Shown piece by piece: positions 28,641 through 63,387 of a stretch of 64,000 bases of DNA. The stretch comes from Dromaius novaehollandiae. Lineage: Eukaryota; Chordata; Aves; Casuariiformes; Dromaiidae. Position numbers and translations under genes: made by a program. The stretch covers positions 5,828,001 through 5,892,000 of the forward strand of contig NC_088117.1 of NCBI RefSeq assembly GCF_036370855.1. The letters are read 5' to 3'. The notes under the pieces were generated by a model. That model was given only the letters and a program-made list of their open reading frames with translations. It had not been told where the DNA came from and searched no databases. Position 1 is the first letter of the stretch. Each line of letters begins with the position of its first letter.

Positions 28641-31600
28641 GAGGGAGGTTTTGGAGCACAAGGAAAGGAGCCCTCCCCCCCCAACCCAAAGTTTTAAGGC
28701 TTTTTTTTAGTCCTCCTGGCAGGCCTGAGACACACGCAAATGCAAATCCTTTCCTGGGAGATGCAAGGACCTGAGGGGTCACCTGTGAGGGAAATGAAGG
28801 CAGGGAAATGGAAAGAGGCTGAGCAGTGCCCTAGCGTGGGGGAACGGGGAGCACGGATCAGGCCTCCGTGCTGCAGAGTGGACAGGGCAGGCCTGTGTTT
28901 TACCACAACTTCCAGCGGAGGAAAGCCCTTAAACTCGAGCAGGATGAAAAAGCAGGGGGCTGGGACCTTTGCTAGATGTCCTGCAAGCAGTCAAGCTTCA
29001 GGTATCCTTAGGGTCAGGGCTGCGATGAAGAGGAGGCTGCAGCCCACCTCTGGATCCCCCATGGAAAAGCTATTTCAGGGAGCAGCTATTGCAGGCGCCG
29101 ATTTAAGGATTTGCAGACCTCTGTGCGAGCCCCGGCAGGCTCTGCAGCTCTGTGCGCCCCAGCACGGCCCGCCAGCAGTGCACCCAGCGTCGCACACCCT
29201 TCTGCTCCCGGACCTGACCCCTCCTCTCACCCCACTTTCTGCCTCGCTAATGCTTTATTTTCCACCTGCGCTGTGGAGACTGCAAAAGCCAGAACTAAGG
29301 GCTTGTGAAGCCAGGAGTACCCTGTGCTGCCACAGCAGGCAGGGCAGAAGCAGAAGGCGTGTGCATAGCCTGGATGTATGAGAGCCATCGGCTCTTCCTG
29401 GGCCAGTTTGTGCACGTGGATCCTGTGTGGTTGTGGGTCTGCCTTGACGGCTCATTTTTGCCTTGCAGAATAGGTCAGAGCTGGTTAGGCTCCAGGGCCT
29501 GCTCACCTGTCTTGCTTGTAAGGCTCAGGGTAAAGAGAGGCTAGAACTGCAGAGGGCAGGATGAACTGCTGAAGCTTTGGGCCCAGAAAGCTGAAATCAG
29601 AGCAGTGGGAGAAAACACGAGGACTGAAGGACGGTTTTATTTGGAGTCGTGCCCTGGAGCATACTGGGGGAATGGGAACGGGTGGCGTGCAGTGTTAGCA
29701 CCATGGCGAGGCAGGACCTGTGATTACAGCAGAGGGCACACGAAATCAGTCTGGCTCCAGAGTGAAAAAGCTGCAGCACCCTGAGGTGCCTTTTCCCATT
29801 GGGGTGCCAGACATCAGCAAGCAAAGGAAATGCAGCGATGCCTGCGTCCCCAAGCACCCTGACCTTCCCATGCTGTGCAAGGTACAGGAGACTGCTGCTT
29901 TCTCAGCCCAGCTGCTGGATGTCCCCATTTCCAGCTCCGCGCTCCCCTGGGGTGGCCTGGGGACCATGCCACGCATACCAGTCACTGCCGCCGTCACTTA
30001 TTGGGGCACTTTGCAGCTGTCACCGTAGGTGCTGTCAAGGCTTCGCGACGCCGTTTGCTGGTGTTGTTAATGAGCGCTTTCTCCCATGGACTTGCTTAAC
30101 AACGTGGCACAGTGCCTGCTGACAGGAGCTGAGGACCTGCCACGGCTGGAGCAGGGCTTATTAAACAGAGAGAAGGGCCTGCTGGGAAATTTCCATGATG
30201 AGGAATTTTTCAGGCAAAATAGAGGGCAGCGTAGGGCAAAATCTCCATTTTCCACTCCATGGCTCCTTTGGTGGGGGACTAGGTTGTTTGCGTCCCCTGT
30301 TTGCTCGAGTGAGTCGAGCTATTTCAGTGGCAGCAGCACCTCCCCAGCCTGCCTGTAGGTCCAGATGTACGTGGAAACAGGGCTGCTTCTGGTTGTAGCT
30401 GGCAAGAAAAACCCTTTGTGTGAGAGGGGATGAGAGCGATGGCTGAGCTAGCACCCAACTGGCTTTGTGGTCAGAGATAGATTGCTTTTGAGCTGATCCT
30501 GCCTGGAAGCCAGAGCTAGACCCTCTCAGATCTCACTAGCCTTTGATGGCCCTGTGAGACGGGATGATTTCAGTCCTGTATGTTGAACAGTGTCGAGCCT
30601 GCTGAAACATTTTGTCTCTGGCTTTCACCCCCAGTTTCGCACTGCACCCTGGCTCTATAGCCATGGCCACATAGGGGCTCAGAGGCCTCTTTGGAAAGGG
30701 AATGTGTCCTGCCTGTCTCACCCCTCCACAGCCCCATGCAATCATCTGTAGGTTTTCTATGCAGCTGCTTAAAGATAATGCAACGCTGGCAGAGGAAGAT
30801 TAAAGCCCATGTCAGCATATGCCAGATGCAGGCCTGCCCAGCTGATGCCCGTGTGTGGCAAGGTGGCACAGGGGCGGCTGCAAGGGAAGGGTGCTCGTTT
30901 CAGGTTGGGTGCACACCCTGCAGGGGTGCTCCCTGCAAACTCCCCCATGAATGCGTCTGTGGGTCCTTCAGGTCCATGATTACACACCTTCCTTAAACCA
31001 TGGCAAGCTGAAGTAATACTGTGCTGGCCTTGGCACCTCCTGGTCTCGCAAACTGAATTATAATATAGCCATTGAGCTGACTTTCTGCAAAGCATGGAGC
31101 AGTCACACATCTGTGCTCTAGAGAGCATCCCGGCATGGGGCTCTCCTGTGACCACATCTCGGTGCATGCTTACGTGTAGATGTGGCCGGCACAGGACTTC
31201 CTGCCCTGGGCCACCTCCTGGGCAAGCAGGACGGTCAGTGCCAGGAGCTGGGACGTGCGGTGTCCAGGGACGCCCAGGGACACTGCGTTTAGCTCGCCAG
31301 TTCCTTGCTGCCTCCCCGGCCCCTGCAAGTTCTGGCAGTCTGGAGCGTTTCTGCAGTGCGTACCGAAAGCACAAGATGGCACTGCAGGAGCGCAAAACCG
31401 GCTAAGCCTCCTCTGCAGCTCAACCGGATTTTTAACCCCTCCGTGGAGGCGAAGCTGCTGCAGGCACAGTGGCTTTCCAGGGGCAAGGTGTGCAAGGGAG
31501 GCCGGCGAGGGGCCGTGACGCCCAAGTGGTTTGCTGCCCCCGCTGAGGACACAGCCTGGAGTGTGAGCCGCCGGCGCTTGCTACGGGAGCACCTGATCTC

Positions 31601-31805
31601 CTTGGGAAAGGAGGAACCATGAGCACAGGTAGTGCCACAACATGGGCCTGAGCACGCATTCGGGAACTGGCACCACGGGGACTGGGGTCTGCCCAGAGAC
31701 TCCCTGAGCTGGTTTCTTCCAAAATGCATGGTAGATGTTTTGTGCTATGGCTCCTCACAGCTGTACGCGGGGTTCACTGGCCTTGGTGTGCCTCATGCCT
31801 GTCTC

Positions 31806-31884
31806 TGCACAGGCCCAGGTGGAAGGGCCTAGGTGTGCTTAGCCTGCACAGGCCACCCTGCGAAGGGCCTGGGTGTGCTTAGCC
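31806..31884. repeat. Two-copy tandem duplication, about 40-base unit
   Basis: Two adjacent units, each beginning TGCACAGGCC and ending in GTGTGCTTAGCC, at 31806-31844 and 31845-31884. They differ mainly in the middle and by one base in length. Confidence 0.85.
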
Positions 31885-33207
31885 AGGTGGCAATAGAGCT
31901 CTTGGGCTAGTTTGAGCAGCAGCATCTGTAGGCACAAAATGCATCAACCTAGGACCACTTAGGGAAGCTGCCCTCTTCCCTAGGCTTGCTCAGACCCTAC
32001 TGCTGCAGCTTAGTCTGGCTTTGCCTCCTGAGCTCCTGCAGGCAGAGACAGTCTTCAAATACACACCAGTCAGAAGGAAGTCCTAGTGCAGGTCTTGCAT
32101 GATAATACCCTGCTGGCAGCAGCTGGGTTTTGGGAGAGCGCAAATGAATCTGCAAGTCTGCTAGTTCCTGAAGCTTCTGATCCTCTGGCTGAAAACCAAG
32201 GAGAGCCATAGAGACAAACAGAAAGACTGCAACATATTGGGCTTTTTTTTGTTTTCTGGAATAGTCCATGCAGGAGAGAAAGTCTCCTCAGAAATATTTG
32301 TTTATGAGAATCCTAGTATTTATCTAATCTTTGTAGAAAACTCCTGCTGAACTAAAGAGGGATAAAACCAGCAAGTTCTGCCCAAAATATTGCCAGATCC
32401 TGTAGGAATCTGGCAGAGCGCAGTCCCCTTGAATTATCTAGTGGGCACAAGGTGGATGGATCTGCTTTTCCTCCTCCCATCATCCCCATAGGAAAAAAGT
32501 TCTCTTTAGCAATTTTCCATAAGTAGCAAGAAATATCTCCAGAAGAAAATGCACAGAATTAAGAGAGGAAGTTAAAAAAAAAAACAAAAACAAAACCCTC
32601 TTCCAGAAGAGGAGAGGGACTGAGGGGTTTTGGTTTGTGCAGCTCTCGTCCATCTCTCTGGATGGAGCACTCTTTGCTTGATATCTTCCTGTTTTAAATC
32701 CAGCTGATTGATTTTCTTTCTCTTTCTTCTTTCACGTTTGTTTATTTTAATAAAGATAGATTTTTTTTTGGAAACCTAAAACAAAATATTCTCCTGTCTT
32801 CACCTGCCCTCCTGGCACTGAGTGCGGGTGGTTATTTCAGTGGTTATAATTTGATTTCTGCCTCTCCTGCTGGGCTGATGTGAGAGAAACAATATTTAGA
32901 GTTGATTTTCCTTTATTTTTTTGGTGGGGGAAGCAAGGGAAGGCAGAGGCTAGGAGTGGTGTGGGAAGAAAGAAGGAGAATCAGAGGGAGTGCACTCTCA
33001 TTTTCTAGGCCATTTTTTTTCCAAGTTTGCAGTCTCTGATGGACAAAAATCCCAGTATAGCTCAACTAATCAATTGCTCTCTGAAGAACAGAAAATGGCT
33101 CATGTCTTTAGGTATTTTTATGTTATTCTTGGCCTGCTGCAGTGACTCACAGCAGCTGCTCTGTGCCAGTGAGTTCAGGTTTCTAGCCTATTTGGGAGGA
33201 AGAGAAT

Positions 33208-33300
33208 TGTGATAATCTCCAGTTTGCAAGTGGGGAAACTGAGGCACAGAACTAAATGGACTACTCTCCCTTCAGATCACGTGCACAGCTGAGGAAGGCA
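33208..33300 (+). repeat. MIR-like SINE fragment, sense
   Basis: GATAATCTCCAGTTTGCAAG followed by TGGGGAAACTGAGGCACAGA is close to the most conserved block of MIR. The following bases fit weakly. Confidence 0.75.
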
Positions 33301-36276
33301 TATAGCATAGCACTAGGGACTGATTTCCAAACCCAAGATACAATCAGCACTCACAATCCAGACCACATTTGCAGCAGCACTCAGATCCCAATTAAACTTC
33401 AACAAAAGTAGATGTTTACCACTGCTTAGCAGCCAGCTTTTCTCCAGTGATAATACTAAGCAGCAGATTTTCAAAAGAGTTCAGCTACTCCCCATTTCTT
33501 GGAGCTTTTTAGGGAAAAGCGCCTGTTTTTAGGTTTGAAAAGGAATGGCTTTTTCTTTGCCAAAAATGTAGCCCTTCATTTCTAGGCATGGAATTAAAAA
33601 CATAATCATCACTTATTTCTAGCTTCTATATGAGTAGCGTCCCTCATATCTCTTTTGTTCACAGTTTTGCTGGTTTCTGGGGACAGGGCTAGTGATGGTT
33701 TCTGTGTGTACTGAAGATAATTGCTCTGCTAAATAATTTTTCCTCCTTTAAAATATATATCAAGATTGTCTGCTGCATAGTTTGTTTCCTGCTGTGGAGA
33801 CAAATACTTTAATTAAGAGGGAAAAGGAAAAAAAAAGTATCACACAGAAAAAGAAAAAGCTTCTGTGAAAAGAAACTGGAAAGGTTTGAGAGAAGTAGAA
33901 CAGGGCAGAGAAGTCCTTGGGCAGGCAGGAGGCACGCTGCCTGGGTGAGCGTGCATACCTGCACGTGCTGTTGTCGTTGTTTTGCTAAATGCAAGGAACC
34001 AGGTGCTGGTGAAAACCCAGAAGCAGCTCAGTTGCATTGCATCGAGCAACCAGAGACCTTCCTTGAACTGCCTGTCCTCGACCTCCTACAGGTCTGTCTG
34101 CTCACACCTGCATGCAGGACAGAGGCTAGAGTTTGCTATCAGACTCTCCCCCCTCTCTTTTACTGACAGCAATAGGGAAGAGGGCTGGACCGGGCAGTGC
34201 TCGAGGAGGTTAGGAGCAGCTTCTGGCAGGTCCAGGTCAGGCTGGAGGAAAGAGCAGCACCTGCGTGCCTCTGCTAGCGGCAACGATGCCTGGAAAGGGG
34301 CTCTTGGGAGGGAAGGACCACCACTGGTAGCTGTGGTGGCATGCCTGGCTGTGCATGGCCCCCATGAGCACGTGCCCCTCTCCTCACATCTTGCATCATT
34401 CCCACCCAGGGCCTGCTCTGTGAGCCAGGCAGATCCCCATGCAGCTGCAAACACTGACAGGGGGATTTTTCTTCCCAGCCAGCAAAGCAGAGAATAGGAG
34501 CAGGACACCCCAAAGCTGTTTCCCAAGGGCTGATCAGAATCACAGCCCCTGGAAAAGGCAGTAGAGGCAGAGAACAAGGTGCCTTTGTCAACACTCCTAG
34601 CACTCCTTGTACCCCATTGCCCTCCCCTGGCTTTAGCATGCCCTGAGAAAAGCCCAGCAGAAATTTCCTGGTCAGAAGAAAGGAGCAAGAGAGTACCTAG
34701 AAGTTGCACTTCAGGGCTGGCATTAAATCCAGGGACAAATTAAGGGGATGGGAAGTTGCAAGTATATGAATTGCTGCTCAGTCCTGAGGATTTGCTCTCT
34801 AGGCCTGATTGGAGGCAGTCAGCATTGTGCCTAGTTTTGCCTGCAAAGTGCAACAGAACAGGAGAAAGAGACACCCCATTTCTAACTGAAAGCCCAGCGT
34901 GAGTCTGCAAGGAAAGAGAGTTCTCCTCTTCCTTGTATTTCTAAGCAAAGGAACCCATCCTTCAGCCGGAGAAGGACACACACACTCAGCCCGCTCATGG
35001 CTTCACACCTAGAGTGGGCTTGCAGCCAGAGCCTCCCTATACTGCATCTTAAGATCTTCCTGGAGAACAGTCCCCATTCCTTCCCCTGAAGCCCACACAG
35101 AAAAAAACCCCTCCTTTCCCAAAGCACATCAGGCAAATCCGGACCTCCCTTTTAATGCCAGCTCTAATGCACTGCAGGTGCTGCCCTTAGCTGGGTGATC
35201 ACCCGAGCTCCCTGCAACGGCCCAGGTGAGCAGCAGACACATGGCCTGGGTTTCAAGGGGCAACCTTGGTTCAGCTGTGTGGCAGGGAGCAAGGAGATCT
35301 GCTTGGATGAATTAATTAGCCTTGCAAAGCTAAAGTTTCAGGCCAGAGGATAGGGGGAAGGAGAAAGGGGGTGAACTGAAAGCACCACAGGGCACTTTCC
35401 CCAGCTGAGCAGGGATTTGTATCCCCTGCTCACAGAGGATAATTAGATGATTGCCATCAGATGGGTAAGCTGAGCTCTTACTTTCTGCACCATCCCTTCA
35501 AGAGAGGAGGATATTATTCCTGTTTTTTACCATCCTGAGCCAGCAATTGTCTATATGAGCTGCCGTGCTGTCCCTATATAATTAAGACTGTCAGTCAAAC
35601 TCAGGCACCTAAACACTACAAACTCCCTGGCTTGTGAGGATTGATTGCAGGACTTTATTGCTTTGCAGGCAAACCAGCCTTTTTGTGGACTCTCTTTTCT
35701 GTTGTTAGAGGAACAAACTGTAAGGCCTTAGGAAGGGAACGTCTCTGTGAAAGATGTCTCAGGTGCTTAGTGGACTTGCTAGGTGTGTCCACAGCATCCT
35801 GTGCAGGCAGGTGGGAGTGAGCCCAATGCTGGACACTCCCCAGTGCTGAGTGGGGGTGGTGTAGCTGTGGTTAGTGCACCTCTGATCCTGATCACTGTGG
35901 TTGGTTCAGAGCTTACTTCTGGGGCTTGGGACATGGCGGGGGCTTTCCTGCGGTGACCTGCAGAAGATGACCTGGACATCTGTCTCATGAGGGGTGTTCC
36001 AGTTTATCTGTTGCCTTGACTGGCAGGAGCACCCGGTAAAATGACAAGTGAAGGACTTGACTCAATATGGCCGTTCTTCTCTTTGCATGTGGGTCTCAGT
36101 GGGCTGGCAGGCAGTGTGGTAGGTACCAGGGCTATATGGACTGAGGCATGGTGTCTGGAAGTCTAGGCTTAGGGGCCAGCCAGTCTGCCTGTCTCTGAGA
36201 AAGCTCTGGGCAAAAGCCTCATGGCACAACTCCTTATCACCCCTATTTTGATTGATGAATTGTCTGTTTTTTGCAG

Positions 36277-36373
36277 GATGTGCATGAAGACAGCATGAAT
36301 GCCAGATCTCTAGTGGGGAAACTCTCCTTGGCTTTTTTCCAGTGGAAAAACCTGGTGATATTGCTGTTTGTGG
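36277..36373 (+). CDS. Sialyltransferase first coding exon (ATG at 36295)
   Basis: Acceptor TCTGTTTTTTGCAG ends at 36276 and donor GTAAGA starts at 36374. Coding begins at 36295, giving a short basic tail and the start of the membrane anchor (residues 1-26, ending in LVILLFV). The start was chosen because it alone gives a hydrophobic anchor that continues in frame into the next exon; it has A at -3. Two earlier ATGs in the exon (36278, 36284) share a frame that stops after seven codons, counting the stop. The acceptor implies at least one upstream non-coding exon. Confidence 0.75.
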
Positions 36374-39300
36374 GTAAGAAAACTTCAGTCCATGCTGAGC
36401 CCTAGGATCTTGCTGTGCTAGGAGCTGCAGAGGGGGAGAAGCCCCTCCAGGCCCCGGTATCTTCACTGGAGGCCTCCCCAAAAATGGAAGGTGGTGGAAG
36501 AGCAGAGGGAGGAGATCTGTTTCCATAAATCAGACATGCACAGCCCTAGGTGTCCCTAAAGGCTGAGATGAGGGGCATTTGTGAACTTTTATGTGTTCCG
36601 GACAAGAAAAGGTGGTTGAGAAGGGACCGTTTCCCTGCTTCCCCCGATTTATGCTAGTGTGCCTGGTGCAAGCATGGGCCCAGAGGTGCAAGAACGGCGG
36701 CAGCAGGCTGGCTTCTCGGCCCTTTGCCATTGCACCGAGGGCTGGCTGCTGTCATCCTCATTTCCAGGGAGGATCAGCAACCAGACTAGGGGCCCAGGTC
36801 ACAGTGCCCTCCTTTAGCTCGGTATCTCTCCACTGGTTGTGTTTTCCAAAAGTTGAGCCTCATCCTGCAAACGCTCCCACCACAGGCAGCTTCCCCTGTG
36901 TGGAGTCGTTCTCTTCTCCTGTGGATCCTGGCACAGGCATTGCTCTTTGATTTGTCATTAATAAAACCGAACTTCTCCTGAGAGGCTTTAGCTGTGCCTG
37001 TTTAGGGTATATTTTTAGGAAATTAAGTCATCTTGGATGTCTTTGGGGGCATGGAGAGAAGAAAAGCATCTTAAAAGGTGACTTTTTTTCCAAAGTGTAA
37101 AAATCTCTTTACTGTTTTGCACAACAGTAAAACAACCAAGTGCTGATTCACTGAGTTCTCCCCTACATCCCCCTGCAAATGCTATCTCTAGCAAGGACGA
37201 TAAGGACATACTTGCAGAATAACTTCTTTCAAAAGTGTTCATACTGGGAAACACCAGTTCAAGGCCTGCATCCACAGTGGTATATGTGCACAGGGCTGTG
37301 GGAGGCTAGAACAGGGTTAACCTGCTTCTGTTTGTGTATGTGATACACAAATTAAATTCCTCTGTGTGTGTGTGGGAGGTCTAGCAGTCACCCTCTGATA
37401 AATGCCGCTGCGCTCTTTGCAGGATTAAGGTCCAAAGGTGGGTGTTTACCTGGGTTGTGTGTATGTGTGTAGCAACCCAACAGTAACTGGCCTGATGAAA
37501 GCCTCTGTGTGGCATGTGTAGGAGGTCCAGCAGAGACCCACTGCTGCAGTACCTGTATGAGCGTATGTAACTGCTTGTGATCTCCCTCCAGAAAGAAAAC
37601 CAATTCTAATTTCATACCATCATTAGAAAGGCTGATTGTTTGTCACAGAAAAAATCACTGCTGCTTAATGACCAAGATACAACCATTGTCATTTTCATAA
37701 AAAAGAAAGAGCCATCATGGTGCACAGTAATGTAATGACTGTTTCGTGGTACAATATGGGAAGCACTGAGAAAAGTCAAATTAAAAGTCTTTATCTCCAA
37801 TCAGAACAATATCTTTACTAATGTTTAAAAGCCCCAAAGAAAAAGCAAAACTAACACTGGAAAATCCGTATCCTCCCGTCCTCCATTTGGCGTGAGCCCA
37901 CAGACAGCGCTGTAAAGCTAGTGGGAGGAATGGGCACAGTGGCCAGCTGGCTGAAGTGACAGAGAGCTGAGCCTTTTGTAAATGAAAGCTCCCCATGGGT
38001 CGCAGAGGAAATCCTGCCCTTTCTCCCAAGTCAAAGCTCTTCCTTAGGGCTGCAACAGTGTGTCTGGGTTGTCGATTCCTCATATTTCAGGCCCTGCAGG
38101 AAGCCTTGCAGTTCTGTTCTCCCACAGATGCCCTGAGTTTTTGATCATGCACATGCTCAGATATCCTGAGCTCTTCTTCTCTCTGTGGTTCCCTGTTAGG
38201 CCCATGACCTCAGCAGACAAGGGCAGTAACCTGCTGATAGAGATCCTTGTGGACCTTTGATTAGATCTTTGCTGCCCCATGCCTCTGGGAATGAGGCGTC
38301 GGGTATAGGTAACTGGGCAGGTAAAATCAGTGATTGCTTTGGACGTGTTGGCAGAAGGCTGTAGAGACTCTCTTACTGCCTAGTCAGCCTGACTTGGGGA
38401 CAGTATCTTCCACTTTGCTGAGATGCTGTAAGAGGAGCTCCCAGAAGGCATTCAGCAGGCCTGGCACCGGCATTTTTATGTACCTGTTGTGCATACTGAA
38501 GTGATGGCTGTCTGCTGTGTCCAGTATGTAGACCTGTGGCCATGGAAGAAGCAGGGAGTGTGCCAAGGGGCTGAGGGCTCACCTGGCTCAAGGAGCACTG
38601 CAGTCAGTCCCTTCTCTTCTCTGCACTATCACATTTTGCAGATTGATGTGAATGATCGCTGGAGTGCTAGGAGTCTTAGAGCTTGCAAGCTATCCTTACC
38701 TGCTGCGACACAGGATCGTGTATTTACTAAGGTTCATTACTAGAAGGCCTCATTTAATTCTGGCTAGCAAGAGGCTGATTCAAATACAGCCACTTGGAGG
38801 CTCCCATACTCTGGAGCAGGGTCTGCTGGTCTTCAGGTCTGATGGCTGGAGGGGCTCCAGTGATGCTGTCTGGGGGGAGAGATCCTGTGGGCTGTTCAGT
38901 GGGGTGGTTCTAGCTGTAGTGATGTTGCTGTGAAACTGCGTGGCCTGTTTCAGCCTCTCCATTGCCTTCAGCAGGTCTGTATGTGCAGAGCCTATACTAC
39001 TCTGTGATGAAGTCACGTGATAGTCAGGCAGGGTAAGTTATCTTTTCTCCTTCCCTTTTCTGACCTCAATGCTACTGTGGTCTGGGCAAATGGTGGGGCA
39101 TGTGGAGGAGGAACAATTTGTCATTGTGGAAGGAAGAGGCAACCCTTCTTCCAAAGTGACGCAGCAAGATGATGAGAATGGATGAGAAACAGCTCCCCCA
39201 GTATGGCATGAATCCTTGGGGGTTTGGAGGACTGTGTTCTGCCTAGCAATGACTTGAGGGCAGGACAGACAGAAATTGCGGGATGAAACAATAGTGATGA

Positions 39301-42300
39301 GACTGGCGATGTCTTAGCTAGACTATGGTAGAGACCACTGTCAGAGTGTCTTGTGGCCATCCCACAGTGATCTTCATTGCATGTCCCTATTTGGAGGCAT
39401 GAACACGGGTCACCTGAGGCCACTGGTTTTCTAAAATTTGACTGGTCAGGGCCCTGCACAGCTTGACTTAACTTTGACATTGGCTCTCCAGAGATCTCTT
39501 TCTACCTAAATTACTCTATGATTCTGCTGAGCAGATATGGAGCTCTTTACATGTTCTTTGGAGGGGGCCTGTTTATGGACAGATATGGTCAAGAGCTCAA
39601 ATCCCTCCTGCATCTTGGCATCCTGGACTGCTTTCAAAGACCTCCTGAAAAAGAGGTGGCTGGAAATGAGCTCTGTTTCTTTTCAGGAAGCGCCTTGGTG
39701 CTTGCAGGAGACGCTTTGTGTGGAGAAAACCTTTTCTTGGAAGGTTTGTCAATTATGCTTTTAGTCTGGGGAATTTTGGTGAGAGATGACTCAGTGCTCA
39801 GTGGCTGCTGATGGGTGGAGACTGGCAGGCTGGACTTTATGTGCATGTATGCAGGAAAGGAAACAGCTAGTTTGAGCTCACTGTTGCACAATGGCATCTT
39901 AGCTCCATTACAAGTGAGTCAGCAAGTCAGCAGAATGGTGCAATACATGCGTGTGTAAAATTTCCTCTGAAGGACAGAGAGGAAGAGATGCACTGTTGAA
40001 GTGGTCAGCGCACAGGGAGGAGTGGGCTTTGTCATGAAGTGAATGAATAAATGAAAGTGAAAGCATAACTGGAATTGTATGCCATCACTGCTGCTCAGAA
40101 GGTGGGTTAGAAACAGTGAGCAGTAAGAATTATATTTAAAAGATGTGGGTCATTTCTGGGAAGTATTTCAGGATAGCTCAGTAGCTTTCCAAAGCCCTTC
40201 ATCATTCAGCCTGCTTCAGATGTGTTAGTCCTTGTGTCTGATACTGCTGTGAGTGCTCCAGTCTTCCCTGAACTGCTGGTGCTCTGAATCTCTCTTGGCA
40301 GGTTTGAATCTCACTGGAAGCCTTTCCTGACCACCAAATCCTTATACTCACTTATGGACAGGCCTTTTACAAGAGAGCTTGAAAAAGTTCTATGGCTCCA
40401 TAAACTTCCTTTTGGGCTACAGAGCTCAGGTATTGCAGTGCTCTGCCTTCAGTGTTATAATGTTGTGGATGGACACTGTGCAGCTGAAGAGCCTCTTCCT
40501 GATGCAGCTTCCCTGAGTGCTGCAGAGGAGATGGAAATATAGCTGGGCACCAGGGTTTATGGAGGGGGGCTAGGCTGAATGGTTGGGATGGCTTTGAGGA
40601 AAGGTCGTAGTCCATGATGGTGATAATGGAGGAAGGGGATAGTGCTTTAACTCCAACTTCTAGCTGTGCTAAGAGGGATGGAAAGAGGAAGGTTGACAAA
40701 AATGCTCTTATGGGTGGAGCAAGACCCATTGCAGAAGTTAACAAACATCAACTGGGAGGGAATAACTGCGTTGGTACCCCTTGCTGTTTTCAATGTGAGG
40801 TAATACAGACTGATTTCAATTGCTCATAGCGCTCATCCGAGGTAACTTGTCTGTCTTTGCGTTGAAACAGACTGGGCAAATTCAGCTGGGGAATTACTGC
40901 TTATGGTAACTTCTGACAAAGCAGGGCGGTAGCCAACTTCTTAAACTGAAGATACACCTCAGTGTGCAGATTGATCAGATTCGAGTGCTTCTTCCACAAG
41001 GCAGTATCAGGGCCTTTCATTCCTGAATCATTCCTCTTGGGGACCTTACTATTTGTGCAGCATCCAAAATGAATGGAGAAGAGCTAGCCTAGATGGCATC
41101 CCTGCCCCAACGAGTGTACAGAGCATGCCCTTTATGTGGAAAAAGGCCTCAGTATTGACAGTGTTGGGTGGATGGCTGTGACAAGAACAGTGTTTGATCA
41201 GGCTCTCCCATGTAAAGTGTCCTGGCACTTTATGGAAGGGTGAAACCTGGCTCTTCAGAGCCTAAGGAAGAAAAGAGTTCTCCTGTTGGCCATGGTGGGG
41301 CCACTTTTATCCCTTGAAGATAACTCTTCAACTACCTCTTGTCTTTCAGTTCTCTCTGCTTTTGCCACATTGCAGCTTCTTCCACAGCAGGAGTTGCCTG
41401 AACCCTTTGAGCGGTAGGGAGACTGGGCTGGGGACGGGTGCTGGGAGAGCAGGAGTGCGAGGGAGGTGGGAGGTGGTCTGAGAGCCCTGGCTGCTGAAGC
41501 TTTTCAAAGTTATCTCTCTTATTCCTCAATTTCACGGTCCTTTCTGCCTCACTCCTTCTGACACTCATCTCCTCTCTCAGTGGGTTTCTCTTTCTATCCC
41601 TTTTAAATGTGCCCTTTCAAGCAGCTCTCATACTGATGAACTTAAGCTGCTAGATCCACACCTCCTCCCTTTAACTTCTGTCATGTCCTGATCTCTGTTC
41701 TCAGTGTTGCCCTGTCCCATCCATTTTCTCTTGTTCTAACTCCATCACAAATGTGGCAGTCCAGGGCCTGAAAAGTTATATGCGTCCCTTCGTTCTGCCT
41801 GCCTACATTCAGAGAGAGCAGGAAGTGAAATACACTGTCTGCTGCAGCTATCGGAAAACTTTTGAGTTTGGAAACCCTCTTCTTTCCTGTCATAAGCACA
41901 CATTAAATGAAATTTTCTGTGGCCTTTTGCTCTCTCTCTTCCCAGTATACCATGTGCCTCAAGCAGAGGTTAACCCTCCAAGTTAAGAACTGCTGGTCTA
42001 CTGGGCATCCCTACTTGACTTTCTCTTTCCATTTCCTCTGTGTCATGTGTCCTCCCTCTCTTCTAGCTGACTAGAGGTCCCACTTAATTTTACTAGCATG
42101 TCGATGACACTCCATTGCTGTATGCTCACTAAGATAAGTCCCACCTCTATGTGTCTGGGACACAGCCAGAATCCTACTAGTCAGGGCTTCTCTGCTCTGA
42201 TGCTACCCAGGGAGTTACTTGAGGGCATCAAACAAGCCCTCAGGGATGCTCCTCTAACCTGACGGTAAAACTTACCAGGGAAGGACTTAATCTCTTGGAA

Positions 42301-45300
42301 TCTATTCTTTTGCCAGCTTACAGTGCCAAAGGTGTATTGTGGTCGGCAATGGGTACTCCATCCATGGCCAACACTTTGGGAAGATGATCGACTCTCACCA
42401 TGTTATCATAAGGTACTGAATTCTTACTAGAACCTAACATTTAGACAGAGACTGAGGAGTGATAATGTGCATGTGTCTTTCTTGCCTGGCAAATGTAACA
42501 TCTAGGATCCATCAGCTCAGGTAATCTAATGACTTTCTTGCAGTTCATGGCCAATCACTGCAGGAGTCAGAATTTATAGCATACTCACTCACAGGTATGT
42601 TCCCTGGGGGCTGGGTAGCCAGCTTCAGTGGCCCACTCAATGGAGTAGCAGGCAATCCCAATGTTACACGACTGGTTTGGGCCTTGACAGTGCCAAATCT
42701 TTGATTTCATTGCAACCTTATATGCATTTTTACTCTGACTTGGGAAAGTCATTTAATTTCTGTGTGCCTCAGTTTCCTATCTGAAAAATGGCAGTTTTCT
42801 GCCACCACTGCCTGCCGCTTTATTAAGGGGAGGAAGTATTCATACATCTGTGTGAGGTACCCAGTTCTGTGGAACCAGGTCATAACGTTGGACCATAACG
42901 TGTATCCATTTCCTCATGAGAGTTCACATGGCCCATCTTGCATTTGACAGCACACAGCTGCTTCCATGGTTGGAAATAAGTGATATTGAAACTGCTCCAG
43001 GGACAAATCCTGCTGTTCTGTCTTTGATTCTCAGATTAAATGATGCTCCAGTAAAAAAGCACAAGAAAGATGTGGGTGAGAGAACCAGCATCCGTCTCTT
43101 CTTCCCTGAATCGGCTCTGCCCAACCCTCTGGAAAACAATGACAATGAGACACTGATGGTGTTTGTCCCATTCAAGCCACTGGATTTCCTCTGGCTGAGG
43201 GAGGTATTGCTGAAAACAAGGAATAAGGTGAGATGTTTTTAATGAGGGAAGGTTGAAACTGAGTTATCTGGAATGACATGTTCCATTGCTTTAATAGTCA
43301 TGTATCCCTCAAATATTTAATGAGCTGCACAATGGACTGAGACTTTATTTTTCACTAATTAGAAACACCCCAGTCTCAGCCACGTTGCAGATAGGTGCAC
43401 TGGCATGAGCAGAAGAGACCTGGAGTTTCTTTGCTCTGCCAGACTATCAGTCCTTCTGAGCACCCAGCTAGAGCAATAGATTGCAGCTAAGTCAGGGATC
43501 TTTATCATAGCACTGTCTTGTGTGCATGGGCATGCCTTGTATCTCTCTCTTTCTCTCTGCCTTTCCCTACAGACAAAGGTGGGGTTTTGGCGCCAGCCCC
43601 CTTGGGAATGGAATGGGAATGTCTCCCACCTACGTATTCTCAACCCATATGTCACCTATGAAGCAACGTACAAACTCCTGCAGTTGAAAACGTGGAGTAG
43701 GGTATGATATCACACTGCAGAGCAGACAGACAACCATCAATATTCTGTGTCTTGTCTAATACCTTACTGCTTGAGTGCCACACAAGAGGAATCTTGGACA
43801 GCAGAGTTGGGGAAAGAAAGTAGGCCCATTGATTAGATTTGCGAGTCCCTTCCCTAGTAAATGCAGTCTTTCCCTACGGCATGATATTACAAGTTTTGAT
43901 CACTGCTCCTACCAAAAAACAGAAGACTTTTCCAACCTGTCACAACACTGCAATGTTATTCATGCTTAGTGCACCATTCCTGTCAGTCTGCCCCATGACC
44001 CTTTACCATTCTGCATTCAAATCACTTTTTAGAGTTACACTTCTGTCCAGAATTCTAGACATCACACAGCCTGGTTCCCTGTTGTGACAAGCAGCTTTGT
44101 CATATAAGCCCTTTCACATATGTTCCTAGGCTTTCCCTGTCTATAGACCATTACTGATAATTAGCTAGTGTAAAATGAGAGGAATTTTGGTTGGCGTTCC
44201 TTAAAACACTCAAGTCTAACAGAATTCTGGCCTAAGGCTAGCTTTTATGCCCACTGCTTCTAGAACACAAATTTCCCATTCACTGCATGGTGAAGGATTA
44301 TTTCATTAATGAATCTAATGATACCTCGTCTTTGGTCCTGACAATCTTGGTGATGGTGCTGTGCAGTCTTTAGTTAGCTTTAAGCCTGCCGGGCACCATC
44401 AGGACGTTTAAAATCTGCAACAAATCCAAGAGAAGCTTGAAGGCCTGATGTGGCAAAGTAACCTTTTCTGAGGTCATACAGTAACTCTTGGCCTGGACTG
44501 AGACTATATGCCAAGTCTCCTGACTGCTGAAGAAATGCTGTTAAAAAGCACATTTCTCCGCTAAAATTCTTGAAAGGTGCTAAGTGGGACAATCCAGGTG
44601 GGGAATGTTAAGTGCTCAGTTAGGCTTGGGGGACCAAGAGCATGCTCAGCTGCTCCATGAGGTTACTGTTCTGCTCAGTCACAAAGCTTTTAATTCAGTG
44701 TGTGAGTTTGTACATGGACATGTTAGCTTTACATGAACAAAGAACATTTTTGTAACGTAGGCCAAGGACAGGCATTTAATGCTGGGATTAGAGATAAGGC
44801 ACCACATGAAGGCCTCCAGTAGAGAATACATGTAAAGAGGCACATGGAAAAGAAAGAGATGCAGAAACCTTGTACAGGCAGGCTCCGTCATGGATGTGGC
44901 TTTGTCAAAAATGCTGATTCCTTCCATCTGAAACCTTTTGGTTTCCATGGAACGCTGTGTTTTAGCATCCCAGAGGTCACATTCTCCTGGACCCTCATTT
45001 TCTGCAGCACCTTCCCAGAAGATGCTGCTTGCTTGAGTTCTGGGAACACTGTCCAGGCATCTGTCCTGTTTTATTTATGTTTTTTTTTTTTTTTTTTTTT
45101 GTGCAGTGTGGAGGAAGCTACTGGTGCCAGTTGGTTGCTGATGTCAATATTGTAAAAGTAGGAGTTTGAAATGTTTAACAGCTGTTCTCTCTTTTCTCTT
45201 CCCAGAGATACGCCACCACGGGAATCATTGCTTTGAACTTAGCCCTCCATATGTGCCAAGAGGTCAACATTGCAGGCTTTGGTTACCCTGGCAACCATGA

Positions 45301-45801
45301 CAATGCTACGCCAATACATTATTACAATATGGGTCGCTCACGGGAAAAAGAGGTAGTAAATGCATCCTCTTCAAACTAACGTGTTCTTCATAGTGGAACT
45401 TAGCAGACAAAGCTAGAACTCAGATATCTGTGAGCTCTGGTAGCTATCACCAGCATTACCCATGGTAATTCCTGTTGGGACATGCCAGGAGAAAGAGTGC
45501 TTTGTTCCCACAAAGGACCTTGAGCGCAGATACAGGCTTATTCAGTGAGCCTTTTACCTGTCCTTGTTTGGTGACATGGGTCCTGCCCAGCCCTATCAGT
45601 GGAAGCTGGGTCAGAGGGGATAGAGGGTGTTTTGGGGAGCATGAGGGGCATTGTAAGAAATAAGCTGTAACTCTGGCTCGCTTGTCTCTGCAGCTGTTTC
45701 AGCACAACCTAACTGCTGAGAGGAACTGGCTGCTGAAAATGATCAAGCAGGGGGTGATTGCTGACATAGCCAACCCTTCCTTCCAGGCCCAAAACCACTG
45801 A
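36295..45801 (+). CDS. ST3GAL-family beta-galactoside alpha-2,3-sialyltransferase (nine coding exons)
   Basis: Predicted Golgi type II enzyme that transfers sialic acid from CMP-Neu5Ac to a terminal galactose. Coding exons: 36295-36373, 38972-39032, 40302-40429, 41350-41413, 42317-42412, 43035-43227, 43573-43701, 45206-45352, 45694-45801. All have AG/GT borders and matching phases, and join to 1005 bases, 334 residues; human ST3GAL4 and ST3GAL6 are about 330. Short cytoplasmic tail, signal-anchor about residues 19-36, stem, then sialylmotif L from C117 (IVVGNG at 118-123, split by an intron after 143), GFWRQPP at 211-217, motif S about 254-276 with C267, motif III H288-Y-Y, and motif VS H303 to E308. 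N-glycosylation sequons at N180, N223, N283, N304. It is closest by eye to the ST3GAL4/ST3GAL6 group but is clearly neither; it may be a non-mammalian paralogue. The fold and family are certain; the exact member and acceptor preference are not. Confidence 0.92.
38972..39032 (+). CDS. Sialyltransferase coding exon 2 (anchor end and stem)
   Basis: The 61-base exon has a pyrimidine-rich acceptor and a near-perfect GTAAGT donor. Its first two bases complete the codon left open by the previous exon, and it encodes the second half of the membrane anchor (GLYVQSLYY) and a short stem (residues 27-46). The acceptor is a tandem CAGCAG, so a version three bases shorter, starting at 38975, is also in frame. 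Confidence 0.75.
40302..40429 (+). CDS. Sialyltransferase coding exon 3 (stem to LPFG block)
   Basis: 128 bases between TCTCTTGGCAG and GTATTG. Residues 47-89. The block KLPFGLQSS aligns with the DLPYGMRTS/ELPYG block that precedes the catalytic domain in ST3GAL6 and ST3GAL4. Confidence 0.88.
41350..41413 (+). CDS. Sialyltransferase coding exon 4 (pre-motif-L linker)
   Basis: 64 bases between CTTGTCTTTCAG and GTAGGG. Residues 90-110. It was found because the flanking exons are out of phase without it. With it, the distance from the LPFG block to the motif L cysteine equals that in human ST3GAL6 as I recall it. Confidence 0.85.
42317..42412 (+). CDS. Sialyltransferase coding exon 5 (first half of sialylmotif L)
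   Basis: 96 bases. Encodes LQCQRCIVVGNG and on to HHVIIR, the donor-substrate (CMP-Neu5Ac) binding motif. The acceptor used is TTTTGCCAG ending at 42316; the AG at 42322-42323 would break phase. Confidence 0.93.
42725..42800 (-). repeat. MIR-like SINE fragment, antisense, in an intron
   Basis: CTGACTTGGGAAAGTCATTT followed by CTGTGTGCCTCAGTTTCCTA and CTGAAAAATGG is an antisense MIR core, the best preserved MIR in the window. It lies between coding exons 5 and 6 of the sialyltransferase. Confidence 0.85.
43035..43227 (+). CDS. Sialyltransferase coding exon 6 (second half of sialylmotif L)
   Basis: 193 bases, acceptor GATTCTCAG, donor GTGAGA. Residues 143-207: LNDAPV, DVGERTSIRLFFPES and the FKPLDFLWL block, all landmarks of the ST3GAL3/4/6 group. 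Confidence 0.97.
43573..43701 (+). CDS. Sialyltransferase coding exon 7 (GFW and RILNP blocks)
   Basis: 129 bases, acceptor TTTCCCTACAG, donor GTATGA. Residues 208-250, with GFWRQPP and HLRILNPY, which match KGFWKQPP and QIRILNPF of ST3GAL4. Confidence 0.97.
45080..45100. repeat. Poly-T tract (21 T)
   Basis: Uninterrupted run of 21 T within the intron before coding exon 8, followed at once by GTGCAG. It forms a strong polypyrimidine tract. Confidence 0.95.
45206..45352 (+). CDS. Sialyltransferase coding exon 8 (sialylmotif S and motif III)
   Basis: 147 bases, acceptor CTCTTCCCAG, donor GTAGTA. Residues 251-299: TTGIIALNLALHMCQEVNIA with FGYP (motif S) and PIHYY (motif III). Confidence 0.97.
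45694..45801 (+). CDS. Sialyltransferase last coding exon (motif VS, stop)
   Basis: Acceptor TTGTCTCTGCAG. Residues 300-334 and TGA. HNLTAE supplies the catalytic motif VS (H303, E308). The C-terminus is about the usual length. Confidence 0.96.
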   Translation: MFQHNLTAERNWLLKMIKQGVIADIANPSFQAQNH

Positions 45802-46335
45802 GATGCTGCTTGCTGTCCTCCTGCAGACACTGCTGGCTGTCCCAGCTGGGCGTTGCCTTTGTTCAAGGTTTTTTTTTGAGCAGAAACATCCTGTTCCATG
45901 TGGGGTGGGAGATGAACCCTGGGAATGAGAGCACTTGTCCTTTCCGCTGCTGGCCTCCAGCTTTCACCACTGCCTGCTGTGGTGGAGGATGAGATGTGTC
46001 ATACAATGCTTCTGCCTTGGGTAATCCCCTCCTGTTTTGGAGATGGCCATCCTTTGCTTGCTGGTTATTTGTATAAAGCACCCAACTGGGATGCTAAGTC
46101 AGTCCCCAGCCCCTGGGTAAGGGAGGGTGACAGTGCATTGTGCGCCTTGGGATTTCAAACTCCTTCCTAAGCAGATTGGAGTGAGAGACCCAGCAGTTTG
46201 GAAAAGGACTGGGCTGAACACTCAGAGATTTCAGTCTTACTAATTGTTGGGAAATGTTCATGTCTGCAGGATACACTGAGAAAGTGGGAATTTTTGTTTT
46301 TCTGTTTGAGAATAAAAATGCTTCTGATTTCGAGG
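45802..46335 (+). other. Sialyltransferase 3' UTR (predicted)
   Basis: Runs from the stop codon to just past AATAAA at 46311-46316. The exact cleavage site is not determined. Confidence 0.7.
46311..46316 (+). terminator. Polyadenylation signal AATAAA of the sialyltransferase gene
   Basis: Canonical AATAAA, 510 bases after the stop, followed by GT-rich sequence (GTGTCTTTGGTTGGC) typical of a downstream element. Confidence 0.8.
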
Positions 46336-46339
46336 AGTG

Positions 46340-48900
46340 TCTTTGGTTGGCACTGTCTTGTGTGAGGGGGATTTCTGGTGGGGACAGGTGAGAATTACAT
46401 CAGCATCGCCTCTGAGATCTTTTCATGGCTTCATGACCCCATGTAATCCTGCTTTCTTCCTCTTCATGGTCTCCATAGCTCAGGATGTTTCTTCCAGCCA
46501 GTTATGAGCATGGAGCCAGCCTGCCAGGTCTATTTTGTGTGCTAAAGATCTTCCACATTTAAGAAATCCCTTCAAATTTCCACTTTGTCTGTGGCTGACT
46601 CCTGTTCACATTCCACCTCTGGCACCCTATCTTTTGGGTCAGAAGCCAGCCCTTTGATCATAGGTCTCAGCCTCCTTCCAGGATGCATCTAGGTTATGTC
46701 TCCTCTTCTTTGCTTCTCTCATTGCTATTTTCTTCGCATCCTGCTATCGTCGTAAGTCCATCTCAGTCGCTGCCTCACTAAAAGGCTGTCTCTAACTGGA
46801 AAAAGAATTTGATGTTAATATAATGGCTATGTTGGTATGATACCTTCTTTGCAGACCCTTCAGCTGGGTGCTCATTGAGGTGAAGGATCTTCTCAAGTAA
46901 CTCTTTGAAGACATGTTCTAAGAGTGGGGTTGGCTTAACTGACATCAAGCTGCGTATGTCTGATAGCAGCAGCATTTGGTGTGTGGGAACGTTAGTACAG
47001 TACCCATATAACTGCTCACAATTTCCACAGCAGACAGCTTTCCTCCCATTTCCTTCCGCCCTCCAGTTTGCTGTGGCCAGGCTCTCAGGGCGCTTCCTCT
47101 GCTCTTTGTGACACTCCTTTTCCTGGGTAATTTCTCTTCCAGTATTTTAGCCCTGTCTCCTGAAGTCTCTGTGTAACCCCTTGTTTCTCACAATCTGCAA
47201 AGCATTAATGCCCTCCATCTAGCTCCCACTGTTACTCTCTTTTGGCAAGCCTGGCTTCTCCTCCATTGGAGCTGAAATGTTTTTGCTCTGGTTGGTGCAT
47301 ACAGTTCTTGACCAAAAAATCTCCACAAAAACTCCCCAAAGATGCCTTGTACCAGGAGGCTGGTGGAAGAACTGGATGCCCCAGCCGTTCAGCTCAGCTT
47401 GATAAAAAAGTCACTTGAAGGGTAAAAGGAGATGACCTAACATTCTCTTACATGCAAACAGAACTGAATGGAGCAAAGGAGGATAGCTGTTTCAGTTAGT
47501 TTCCCTTTATCGGCTAAACACTGGCTTCAGGTTTTGCTCTATACGTATACAAGTCTTTGCTATCTACATAACACATAATAGCCACACAGGCTCTGCTGGA
47601 TTCCAAAAAATGGTTTCTGTAAATGCATACAAATACGGATTTTGCTCGACCAGTATTTTGGAAGTTATTGCTTTGTAAACAGTGGAACTGGGTCTCAACT
47701 ATGTGGATGACTAATGCTCTGTGTTCTGCTCCTGCTAAGGTAAAATGGCATGAAAATATTAATGTCCAACAGCTGATGTATAAAGCATTCTGTGAACTAA
47801 GCCCAAAAGATGGTTTACATTTTCCCTCTGGGCAACATGTACAAGAACTTCACCACAGCTTGCAAGAGCCGTCCCTCCACTTTCTGTGGTAGTTGTTGCA
47901 ACATCTTCCTGTTGTGTAGTGACAAGTCATGGTAGTGAGACCATAAATATGAGGCTCAAGAGTGTTAGCACTGGTCATTGCCTGTGGCAATGCTCTCAGT
48001 ACTTGCAGCAAGCAGGTCCATTACACAACTTTTTGAATTTATGTTTGAGAACTGACTGATGTGTTTTCCCTTAAAAAAAGGTTCTGTAATCTTTCTAAGT
48101 GACCACAGTTCATTACAGCTGCCTCTTGTTCCAGAGTATAGCAGCTATGCAGTAGGGACTTAGTATTTAACCATACTTCAATGGTGGCCCTGAATCCCAA
48201 AAGTAACCTGTCTTGTGTCTGGTTTGCAGTGGCACATGTAGCACTCCTGCCACGCAGGTCCATAGAAAGTCTGTGATCTGCAGTCCTCCAGGTTCTACAC
48301 ACATTTCTTGTTTGATAGTCTGAATAAATCCTAGCCCTACAGCAGACTCATTATTATCAAGAGAACTGAGGGAAAGGAGGTGGAATAAGTAGGATAGAGC
48401 AAAGCCACAGCAATACAAAACATATGTAAATTAGGCTATGAGATACCATAATAAGGATGTAATGGAGGGGGGAAAGAAAAGGAAAATGAGTAGTATTGTT
48501 GCTTGAATAGCAAAAGCTAGCATTGGTCTGAGCTGATAAATCCACCCTCTCAGGGCTGTGAAAAGGCAATTATACCCCTTCTGAACACAGTGCAATTCCT
48601 GCCAAGGCACTGTGAACATCCTTGCATCAACGGCAGCACTGCATCTCCAGGCTCAGTGGACAGCCGAGGTGCGACAGTGATTCATCCATGGCAGAATGGC
48701 ACGGCATTGCTGGGCATCTTTGGTACCAGCCAGCCTGTCTGCAGGAGTGAAGGGAGATCCATCCTCACTCACTGTTCATGAATGCTTGGCAAGCGAGTCT
48801 GGATGCCTTCACCATCTGTGTGACATCCTCCCAACCGTTTAGATTAAACATCAACTGCAGTAAAATGTAGGGCTCCTAACTGACCTGACGTAGTCCATAT
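46340..48900. other. Intergenic, nothing recognised
   Basis: No exon seen. Lower-coordinate parts of the neighbouring minus-strand retroelement (integrase or LTR) may reach into 48.0-48.9 kb, but I cannot recognise them. Confidence 0.5.
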
Positions 48901-49339
48901 GGAGTAGCTGCCACAGATAGTGACTATCTTGACACTGATTAATCACTTCTTCTAGTATTTGTCCCTGGCTGCCTGACACAGTTCTTCCCTAATAGCTTTT
49001 GCATGGTTCTGGGGTATTCATGTGACCTTGGCTTTGGGGAATATCCCATATGATGACACACATTACCTACTCTGATGTAGACTGCTTTTGATCAAACCGA
49101 CTTGGACATTAGCTTTTGGGTTTGTTTCTTTCCTCTGTGTACACCAATATCTATCTTTTACTGCAATGGGAGACACCTCGGGTATGCTGGACTGTGTTTT
49201 GTTTTGGGTTGCACCATGTGGGGGTACTTGGTCTGTGCCATACAGCATGTAGAGACTGTCTCTGCTTCCACCTCCATGTCCTTACCTGTCACTTACAATC
49301 ACAGGCATGACGAGCAATCTGCATTGCTGGCACTCCTTG

Positions 49340-51640
49340 CTTTGAAACTAGCGGTTAAATGATCTGTAACTAGAGTCAATCATTGCTCAGACAGACAACG
49401 GTGAAGCTCTCTAACACCCCCAACTAGCTGCAGAGTTTCTCTCTGAATCTGAACACGGTTCTGTTCTTCAGAGATACGAGACCCCAAACCAAAGGCAGTA
49501 GGTCTTTCAGGCTGCTCAAGTGTGAAATTGCTACACCTGTTTCATATGAGGAAGCAGCACAATCAAATGTTATAGGTACCAAGACACTGTAGTAAGGACC
49601 CTTTCAGATGAGATTAGTTTCTTGTCTTCCTCACCAGCCTTAGTTCAGTGTGTGGATTAGGGCTGTCTCTAACCAGTGTCTATCAGGCCAGTCAGGGAAT
49701 ACCATACAGTTGCTTTATCAAACTATCAAAACTATCTTCGATTTTTTTTTCCATTTTTCCTTGTGATTTATATAAATTGTCTTTCCCAGCAGAATGGCTG
49801 GGAAAATTCAACACCCTGCTGAATTTTTGAGATATTTCCTTTTTCTTTTCCTATCCACTCAGACAACCTTTGAGACTTGGGCAAGTGACTGACTTGTTGA
49901 GCATAAGAAGTGACTGTGCATCAGCTAAACCTTGAGGACTTGCTAGCTGGCTATGCGTTCTGAGCCTAGAACCTAGCTGCAACACAAAGCAATTTAAGCT
50001 TAATTCACCACAAGTGACTGTTAAGCCGAGTTGTGCTGGCTGATACTGTGCAAGCTAGGCAGGCACACATGGCCAGTGCTGCAACTCATCTGAGAGCAAT
50101 ACTTGGTTATCTGGTGTAGTGTGATTGTGTGCCTGAGCTTCTCAAGTACTTTTGGAAGTTCTGGGCAATAGCAGTTGATCTGTATGTGATATTGGGTTAG
50201 CTGTGGCCTTGAAATCACCATAGTTACAACAGGCCTATTTATTTACATCACTGACATGTTAGGGCAACTCCATTTGCCCCAGCTAACCTCATATTACAGG
50301 GTCCTAGAGGTGCTGAGGTCCTCTTGCTACCTTTGCCTCCTTAGCAAATTACTGGGTCACTTTGCAGATGTTAAGAATTCATAAACTGTTCATATACTTT
50401 CAAGTTCCCTTAATGAATGCCTGGAAGATATTACCAGTTATATTGTCCGAGAGTTTTGCAAAGTTTTCTTTTCAGTTGGAGTTCATAATTACTGTTTTTT
50501 GTATAAGAAAACACTAGATGCTTTGTCAATCTGTCTACATTGTGACCATCCTATGCCAGGTAATGCCTGACTACTTTGCTTCAGATCACAGAGGTTGAGT
50601 ACATGCTGTTTGCTGTTGTGTTACTTATATTATAATATTGTTCAGGAGAGCAAAGCTTTTCCAGACAGGTGTTTTTAGAAACATTGAGATTTTCTGTAAC
50701 ATCTCCTTTCTAAGAGATCTTTAATGATCCCACCAGTAAATTGCCAGCACAGTGAATCGTGTGTCATTTTAGATGTTATTCTTGTCATTTTAAAGGATTC
50801 CAAATAATACTTTTATTTCTTGTGAACTGAAGGAAGCAATTATAGAGACATTATGGCTCTCTCCAGTCATTGCACATTGTTATATGCAAGCTGAAGAATA
50901 TGAAGTTAACTGGCATTGACTTTCTAAACTGGTGGCTGGGTTTGATTCATTGGCATGCGTGTTTTCTGCTTGTACTCCATTCCTTGCAGTTTGTATATGA
51001 TTTGTCCTTGAACCAGTGATGATGCACATTGTGAAACTGTCCCCTATGGTAGAAGCAGCATATTCTTTGAATGTCCTTCAAGTTGTACTTTCCACTTGAC
51101 CTCTAAGGGTGGCTGTTGGATGGATTTTGTGATCCTCCCAAACTCTCCAGCATCTTCAGTGAGTCTTCATTGAAATGGTAATTTCTAGTGCATACTTCAG
51201 GCTCATCTCAGCTTTAGATAAAAATTAAATGTGGATTGCTTCATTCTGCATATTGAATGCTAAAGGACACATTCATTTGTCCTCTCTGCAGACACGATGC
51301 TCTGCCAATTTCCTTAATCCAGACACAGAAGCAGTCAGCAATTGTTTCCTTTCACTTTTGATTCCATCTATAAAAGCAAATACCTGCAATCACCAGCGTC
51401 TTTTCAGAAAGGGGTTTTTGCAGAACTTGCCCAATTTTGACGAAGTTTTTGTCTGCTGGTTTAATGGGTGCTGTCTGGCTGCACATCAGGGTGTCAGTTT
51501 TAGCTCCCATTGTGCTGCCACGTTTTTTTCATCATGGAGATCATCTGTTATTTTAGGTTTTCACATCCCTCAATGGCCCTCTGCTGACCCGCTAAAGAAG
51601 TCCACTCTTCCCCAGGTATTTTAAACTTTTCTTTGTAAGC
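49340..51640 (-). mobile_element. Eroded Ty3/Gypsy retrotransposon (gag to RNase H)
   Basis: Reading the minus strand from 51.64 kb down, three domains appear in the correct order, broken by stops and frameshifts. Gag capsid-like sequence lies at about 51515-51180, with landmark pieces SEKTLVIAG and GLRKLAEH. A degenerate zinc-knuckle region with C, H and FKDKS residues lies at about 51075-50950. An RNase H region lies at about 49580-49345, with SSYETGVAISHL, QIQRE and LVTDH in nearby frames. Protease and reverse transcriptase should lie between and are too worn to outline. The spacing fits a single element. The Mag-like clade is suggested by the gag and zinc-knuckle layout. No LTRs found. 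It is long dead. Confidence 0.8.
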
Positions 51641-52640: not shown

Positions 52641-52666
52641 TTCTAGTCCAAACTACACCTTTCATT

Positions 52667-52764: not shown

Positions 52765-52903
52765 TTTGTGGCTCTGTGCAACTCTCAGTCACAAGCAGTA
52801 AGAAGCAGGAGTGGTGAAACACTCAGCATTTCAGGCGATTTCTTGCTCCACGTCTTTAAGTTATATCTATGGTCCTTTCTCCTGAATGTTTGGACTCCTG
52901 AAG

Positions 52904-63357: not shown

Positions 63358-63387
63358 ACACACACACACACATTCATGCACACACAC
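63358..63387. repeat. Interrupted (CA)n microsatellite
   Basis: CA run interrupted by TTCATG, then more CA units. Confidence 0.9.

Follow-up and report, generated by a model that had tools for sequence, protein, structure and literature searches.

The window analyzed here is a stretch of 64,000 nucleotides from Dromaius novaehollandiae (contig NC_088117.1, positions 5,828,001 to 5,892,000; C20:5828001-5892000 in the contig numbering used below). It holds two genes on the plus strand, a sialyltransferase gene at 36295-45801 and, 3' of it, TLR4 at 52904-57592. Comparison with the other sialyltransferases of the same genome and with the published repertoire of birds indicates that the first of these is very probably ST3GAL9, which would make it, alongside ST3GAL4 and ST3GAL6, the third vertebrate gene of the 4/6/9 group.

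The sialyltransferase gene consists of 10 coding exons separated by 9 GT-AG introns, which together give a single open frame of 1059 nucleotides encoding 352 residues. An earlier sequence-only reading had described a full-length frame at this locus, and indeed no internal stop interrupts it. Exon 1 (36277-36373) follows a splice acceptor ending at 36276 and carries an in-frame ATG, so that its coding part runs from 36295 to 36373, up to a GT donor. It is followed by exon 2 (38975-39032), where a CAGCAG acceptor means that one residue may vary, exon 3 (39687-39743, 57 nucleotides), exon 4 (40302-40429), which encodes the stem and the start of the catalytic domain, and exon 5 (41350-41413). The sialylmotifs are spread over the downstream exons: exon 6 (42317-42412) encodes the first part of motif L with C132 and C135, exon 7 (43035-43227) the remainder of motif L and an RLFFPES stretch, exon 9 (45206-45352) motif S with C285 and motif III, and exon 10 (45694-45801) motif VS with H321 and E326 as well as the stop codon; exon 8 spans 43573-43701. 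An AATAAA polyadenylation-like signal, recognized by motif only, lies at 46311-46316 on the same strand. The sequence-only reading counted nine exons and 334 residues, having missed exon 3; our model minus that exon gives 333 residues, and the 334th could come from splicing at the alternative AG of exon 2. Exon 3 has consensus splice borders, preserves the frame and codes for C52, and the ST3GAL4 gene of the same genome has a corresponding short separate piece with a single cysteine at the matching position.

Two observations concern the region 5' of the coding sequence. A short upstream ATG frame (36278-36298) begins right after the splice acceptor, and its TGA overlaps the main start codon (ATGA); it is a possible brake on translation, depending on the 5' exon. 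In addition, positions 28001-32000, which start about 8 kb 5' of the first coding exon, are GC-rich, with a GC fraction of 0.75 and an observed/expected CpG ratio of 0.65 at 28001-28500, and the part scanned for domains (to 29700) contains none. This block is perhaps the promoter of the sialyltransferase gene, with 28001-28500 as the candidate stretch.

The spliced product matches PF00777 (Glyco_transf_29) with 199.1 bits against a cut-off of 23 (E=1.2e-58), and exons 6, 7 and 9 are each detected in the unspliced frame (E=2.3e-8, 3.4e-14 and 5.7e-11, respectively). All four sialylmotifs of the earlier reading could be located in the 352-residue product: L from C132, S from Y270, III (HYYN) at 306 and VS (HNLTAE) at 321, including the L pattern C132-xx-C135, C285 in motif S and the VS pattern H321xxxxE326. 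The protein has only four cysteines (C52, C132, C135 and C285), and its most hydrophobic 19-residue stretch begins at residue 20, which fits a type II membrane anchor. For comparison, we used working versions of five human proteins (ST3GAL1, 3, 4, 5 and 6, hereafter working human sequences). In tblastn searches of the window, human ST3GAL3, 4, 5 and 6 matched exons 6-9, ST3GAL5 matched exon 10 too, and ST3GAL1 matched exons 6, 7 and 9, while the same queries gave zero matches in the reversed window. Taken together, the profile score, these matches and the empty control show that the family match is not due to chance. The nearest solved structures were, in order, porcine ST3GAL1 chains, ST6GALNAC2, an alpha2,8-sialyltransferase and ST6GAL1. 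Motifs L and S of porcine ST3GAL1 (PDB 2wnb; phmmer E=2.2e-20), also of glycosyltransferase family 29 (GT29), align with those of the window protein, but it belongs to the group formed by ST3GAL1, 2 and 8, inside which the tests described below reject the window protein. With ST3GAL1 as the best structure match and ST3GAL4 as the best other locus in the host genome, the protein belongs to the ST3GAL family.

We then compared the gene with its relatives in the host assembly (1,468,444,375 bases, or 1.47 Gb, in 271 contigs). A GT29 profile search gave 70 exon matches, 3 of them within the window gene; the gene readings that follow cover 10 stretches fetched from these plus their neighbors. Seven other ST3GAL genes could be read: ST3GAL4 (C21), ST3GAL6 (C1), ST3GAL3 (C8; partial, its last exon not found), ST3GAL5 (C4), ST3GAL1 (C2), and ST3GAL2 (C13) and ST3GAL8 (C16), each of these last two lacking a short exon. 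The labels ST3GAL2 and ST3GAL8, both in group 1/2/8, are our assumption from similarity and chromosome homology. Over the catalytic domain, host ST3GAL1, 3, 4, 5 and 6 were 72.6-89.5% identical to the working human sequences, with 81.6% for ST3GAL4 (177/217 sites) and 72.6% for ST3GAL6 (156/215). The window protein reached its highest identity with host ST3GAL4, at 41.7% (88/211), followed by 39.1% with the partial ST3GAL3 (72/184), 38.8% with ST3GAL6 (81/209), 35.0% with ST3GAL5, 34.8% with ST3GAL2, 32.2% with ST3GAL8 and 30.8% with ST3GAL1. Its position between ST3GAL4 and ST3GAL6, as described in the sequence-only reading, thus holds loosely, but the partial ST3GAL3 is about as close. When the window product was searched against the host genome, 27 matches were found, namely the 10 exons of its own gene and 17 elsewhere, of which the best was ST3GAL4; a single copy of the window gene was seen.

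Loci L001-L008 and L018 were not ST3GAL1-6-like in a tblastn comparison and were excluded from the tree. Two further GT29 matches lie on the same contig as the window, about 1.5 Mb away (C20:7423435-7428331), which, judging from linkage, are probably ST6GALNAC4/6. As a separate observation, the GT29 and MACPF matches on contig C33 correspond to those on C35 with a shift of some 13.7-13.9 Mb, which means that one chromosome seems duplicated in the assembly. In ratites Z and W are largely similar, and the two contigs seem to be either such a pair or two haplotypes.

In the main tree, calculated with IQ-TREE from 13 sequences, host and human ST3GAL4 join with a support of 99/99 (approximate likelihood-ratio test/ultrafast bootstrap) and host and human ST3GAL6 with 100/94, and the window protein falls outside both. 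Its best placement is as sister to ST3GAL4. We evaluated 12 placements of the window protein with the approximately unbiased (AU) and Shimodaira-Hasegawa (SH) tests. The AU test rejects a position inside ST3GAL4 (p about 0.003) or inside ST3GAL6 (p below 0.001), and likewise a sister position to ST3GAL3 or to ST3GAL5 (0.007) and any place within group 1/2/8; it keeps sister to 4, to 6, to (4,6), to (3,5) and to (3,4,5,6). With the more conservative SH test, rejection is limited to the ST3GAL6 (p 0.02-0.03) and group 1/2/8 placements. Grouping inside sauropsid ST3GAL4 or ST3GAL6, which the sequence-only reading had named as one outcome that would speak against an extra lineage, was thus evaluated with the host's own copies and is rejected for both by AU and for ST3GAL6 by SH.

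These results bear directly on whether the window gene is simply a fast-diverged bird ST3GAL4 or ST3GAL6. ST3GAL4 is its closest relative by sequence and its sister in the best tree, and the SH test does not reject a placement inside ST3GAL4. The same genome, however, contains a clear ST3GAL4 and a clear ST3GAL6 on other contigs, each recognizable from its identity to the working human sequence, and given the AU rejections we consider this explanation extremely unlikely. The window gene is therefore distinct from both, by AU for either gene and with SH leaving the ST3GAL4 case unrejected. The exon pieces of ST3GAL4 and of the window gene break at similar places and the two share GFW-QPP and AGFGYP stretches, but the host's own ST3GAL4 is a separate gene with the identity given above. 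ST3GAL6 belongs to the same published group and its motif III also lacks an acidic fourth residue, but it is a separate and still less similar gene.

Placement within the ST3GAL4/6/9 group is less firm, and several points weigh against it. The main tree is limited to 13 sequences, among them the five working human sequences and partial host genes. The sister relationship to ST3GAL4 is weakly supported in IQ-TREE (81/77) and in FastTree, which returns the same sister at 0.63, and the node adjoining the ST3GAL4 join is unsupported (2.1/36). The AU test keeps the sister position to (3,5) at p=0.15, SH rejects neither a position inside ST3GAL4 (p=0.19) nor one next to 3 or 5 (p=0.19), and a preliminary test on six sequences, run with few resamplings, kept sister to ST3GAL1 (AU p=0.12) and rejected just the sister positions to 3 and to 5. 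Group-specific residues are not clear-cut either, since the window protein matches 10 of the 32 columns exclusive to 4+6 and 8 of the 34 exclusive to 3+5. Finally, the sequences compared were those of the host and human ST3GAL1, 3, 4, 5 and 6, and the ST3GAL9 assignment follows the published description. A different extra lineage has to be considered, for instance ST3GAL7 (group 3/5/7) surviving as a relic in tetrapods, or a GT29 lineage not described so far. It is favored by the sister positions to (ST3GAL3, ST3GAL5) and to all of 3, 4, 5 and 6 (p=0.08) that AU retains, and by the counts of residues that the window protein has in common with a single human paralogue, which favor neither ST3GAL4 (11) nor ST3GAL6 (12) over ST3GAL3 (11), ST3GAL5 (16) and ST3GAL1 (15). 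The best tree nevertheless joins the window protein to ST3GAL4, and the 13 columns distinguishing 4/6 from 3/5 show a slight lean, 6 of them agreeing with 4/6 and 3 with 3/5. In addition, PMC5000683 lists ST3GAL7 as lost in tetrapods (Table 1) and ST3GAL9 as present in birds. We therefore regard another lineage as unlikely.

The identification as ST3GAL9 agrees with what has been published on the family. In PMC5000683, st3gal9 is described as a genome-duplication paralogue of the 4/6/9 group; birds and platypus have retained it, whereas fish, amphibians and the remaining mammals have lost it. PMC10225777 lists it among the genes lost in teleosts. Birds are reported to keep ST3GAL 1, 2, 3, 4, 5, 6, 8 and 9 (PMC5000683, Table 1). 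The eight ST3GAL genes read here match this set, which fits ST3GAL9 as the identity of the window gene, with the labels ST3GAL2 and ST3GAL8 being our own assignments. What the window gene has in common with ST3GAL9 as described there is its status as an additional paralogue, with the 4/6/9 group as its best placement, in a genome that also has a separate ST3GAL4 and ST3GAL6; the comparison was by description only. The extra ST3GAL lineage proposed in the sequence-only reading, possibly ST3GAL9, is supported by the AU tests, the separate ST3GAL4 and ST3GAL6 and the published bird repertoire. Its apparent absence from mammals, on the other hand, does not apply to platypus, which has ST3GAL9, and stands for other mammals according to the same source (PMC5000683). 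The lineage is hence already known, and its genomic linkage is a useful added detail.

GT29 members are Golgi membrane enzymes that use a cytidine monophosphate (CMP)-sialic acid donor. By analogy with its family, the window product would sit in the Golgi as a type II membrane protein and transfer sialic acid from CMP-N-acetylneuraminic acid (CMP-Neu5Ac) onto the 3-OH of terminal galactose (Gal), with Gal-beta1,4-N-acetylglucosamine (Gal-beta1,4-GlcNAc) as the most likely acceptor. The reaction would be a metal-independent direct displacement with H321, the VS histidine, as the base, and disulfides C135-C285 and C52-C132, a presumed pairing, would hold the fold. In PMC10225777 the VS histidine is given as the catalytic base, alongside a disulfide between motifs L and S and the roles of the sialylmotifs; the acceptor Gal-beta1,4-GlcNAc is listed for ST3GAL9 as predicted only (PMC5000683, Table 1). 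A decaying or inactive copy, which would be compatible with the ST3GAL9 name, could explain why motif III reads HYYN instead of the HYYE of ST3GAL4, why the window protein has the longest terminal branch in the IQ-TREE tree (1.08), and would be in line with the weaker selection reported on st3gal7, 8 and 9 (PMC5000683, section 8). We find this quite improbable, as all ten exons have GT-AG borders, no stop occurs, the VS histidine and glutamate and the four cysteines are intact, and host ST3GAL5 likewise has HYYN and host ST3GAL6 HYYG.

In agreement with the earlier reading, the gene lies beside TLR4. The latter has three exons and encodes 843 residues: exon 1 (52904-53008) with the signal peptide, exon 2 (53826-53992), and exon 3 (55333-57592) with the leucine-rich repeats, membrane span and Toll/interleukin-1 receptor (TIR) domain. 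Its start codon lies 7.1 kb past the sialyltransferase stop, and the probable polyadenylation signal of the sialyltransferase gene is some 6.6 kb away from it. The protein is closest to solved TLR4 chains, then to CD180, with 248 of 556 aligned query residues identical to human TLR4, and chicken TLR4 on chromosome 17 is likewise described with 843 residues and three exons (PMC2275738). Further out on the same contig, specific profiles placed the ASTN2 hairpin domain at C20:5350912-5351052 (minus strand), its only match in the genome, and BRINP exons at C20:6373077-6381190 (minus strand), so that the window gene lies between them. We interpret the exons on C20 as BRINP1, although the two better BRINP matches are on C8; a general MACPF search of the host genome for ASTN/BRINP gave 10 matches, none of them on C20. 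We presume that the order of the human genes within 9q33.1-33.2 is ASTN2, TRIM32, TLR4, BRINP1 and C5. These genes have been reported as clustered at 9q33.1-33.2 (PMC8282839), and the presence of ASTN2, TLR4 and BRINP together on C20 therefore looks like a conserved block holding an extra gene. The literature searched gave no report of linkage between ST3GAL9 and TLR4, with the word TLR4 missing from the main text of PMC5000683 and PMC10225777; the founding 2015 paper, which lay outside the search, may well report it. One could speculate that the head-to-tail arrangement reflects shared regulation, this lineage having kept a sialyltransferase specialized for innate immune activation and with an acceptor preference unlike that of ST3GAL4 or ST3GAL6. 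Closeness is the sole argument for this, and we rate it as highly unlikely.

To characterize the rest of the window, we scanned its translated DNA with Pfam (stops as X, E up to 0.01), covering 1-29700 and 45900-55600 in six frames and 57601-64000 in four of six; the scans did not extend to 29701-35999, to the minus strand of either 36000-45899 or 55601-57600, or to two of the minus frames in 57601-64000. The leucine-rich repeats of TLR4 were the sole result, and the GT29 exons were recovered as a positive control for unspliced scanning. Searches among bacterial genomes and among viral sequences confirmed no relative (13 and 1 pattern matches, respectively), and the window contains no transfer RNA, no repeat family of 40 bases or more, no Rfam match at the gathering score, and 4 small tandem repeat arrays. 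A 24-base pattern of the mammalian-wide interspersed repeat (MIR) with up to 3 mismatches had no match in the window, while nhmmer with a working MIR consensus found five MIR-like fragments of short interspersed elements (SINEs) with E below 0.005, at 42739-42818, 20812-20884, 33186-33256, 23331-23484 and 7974-8053, the best being 85% identical over 54 bases. A working sequence of the end of chicken repeat 1 (CR1) gave one match (E=0.01), and the reversed window gave none with either query. Birds are described as almost wholly devoid of SINEs (PMC4054807), which makes these fragments unusual; our guess is that slow sequence evolution, as in a ratite, would make them compatible with a bird genome.

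For the biology of birds, the identification suggests that ST3GAL9 may help make their alpha2,3-linked sialic acids. In addition, the block ASTN2 - ST3GAL9 - TLR4 - BRINP provides an exact address at which turtles, crocodilians, lizards, platypus, marsupials and placentals can be examined for ST3GAL9 or remnants of it, and such a survey would date the loss of the gene.

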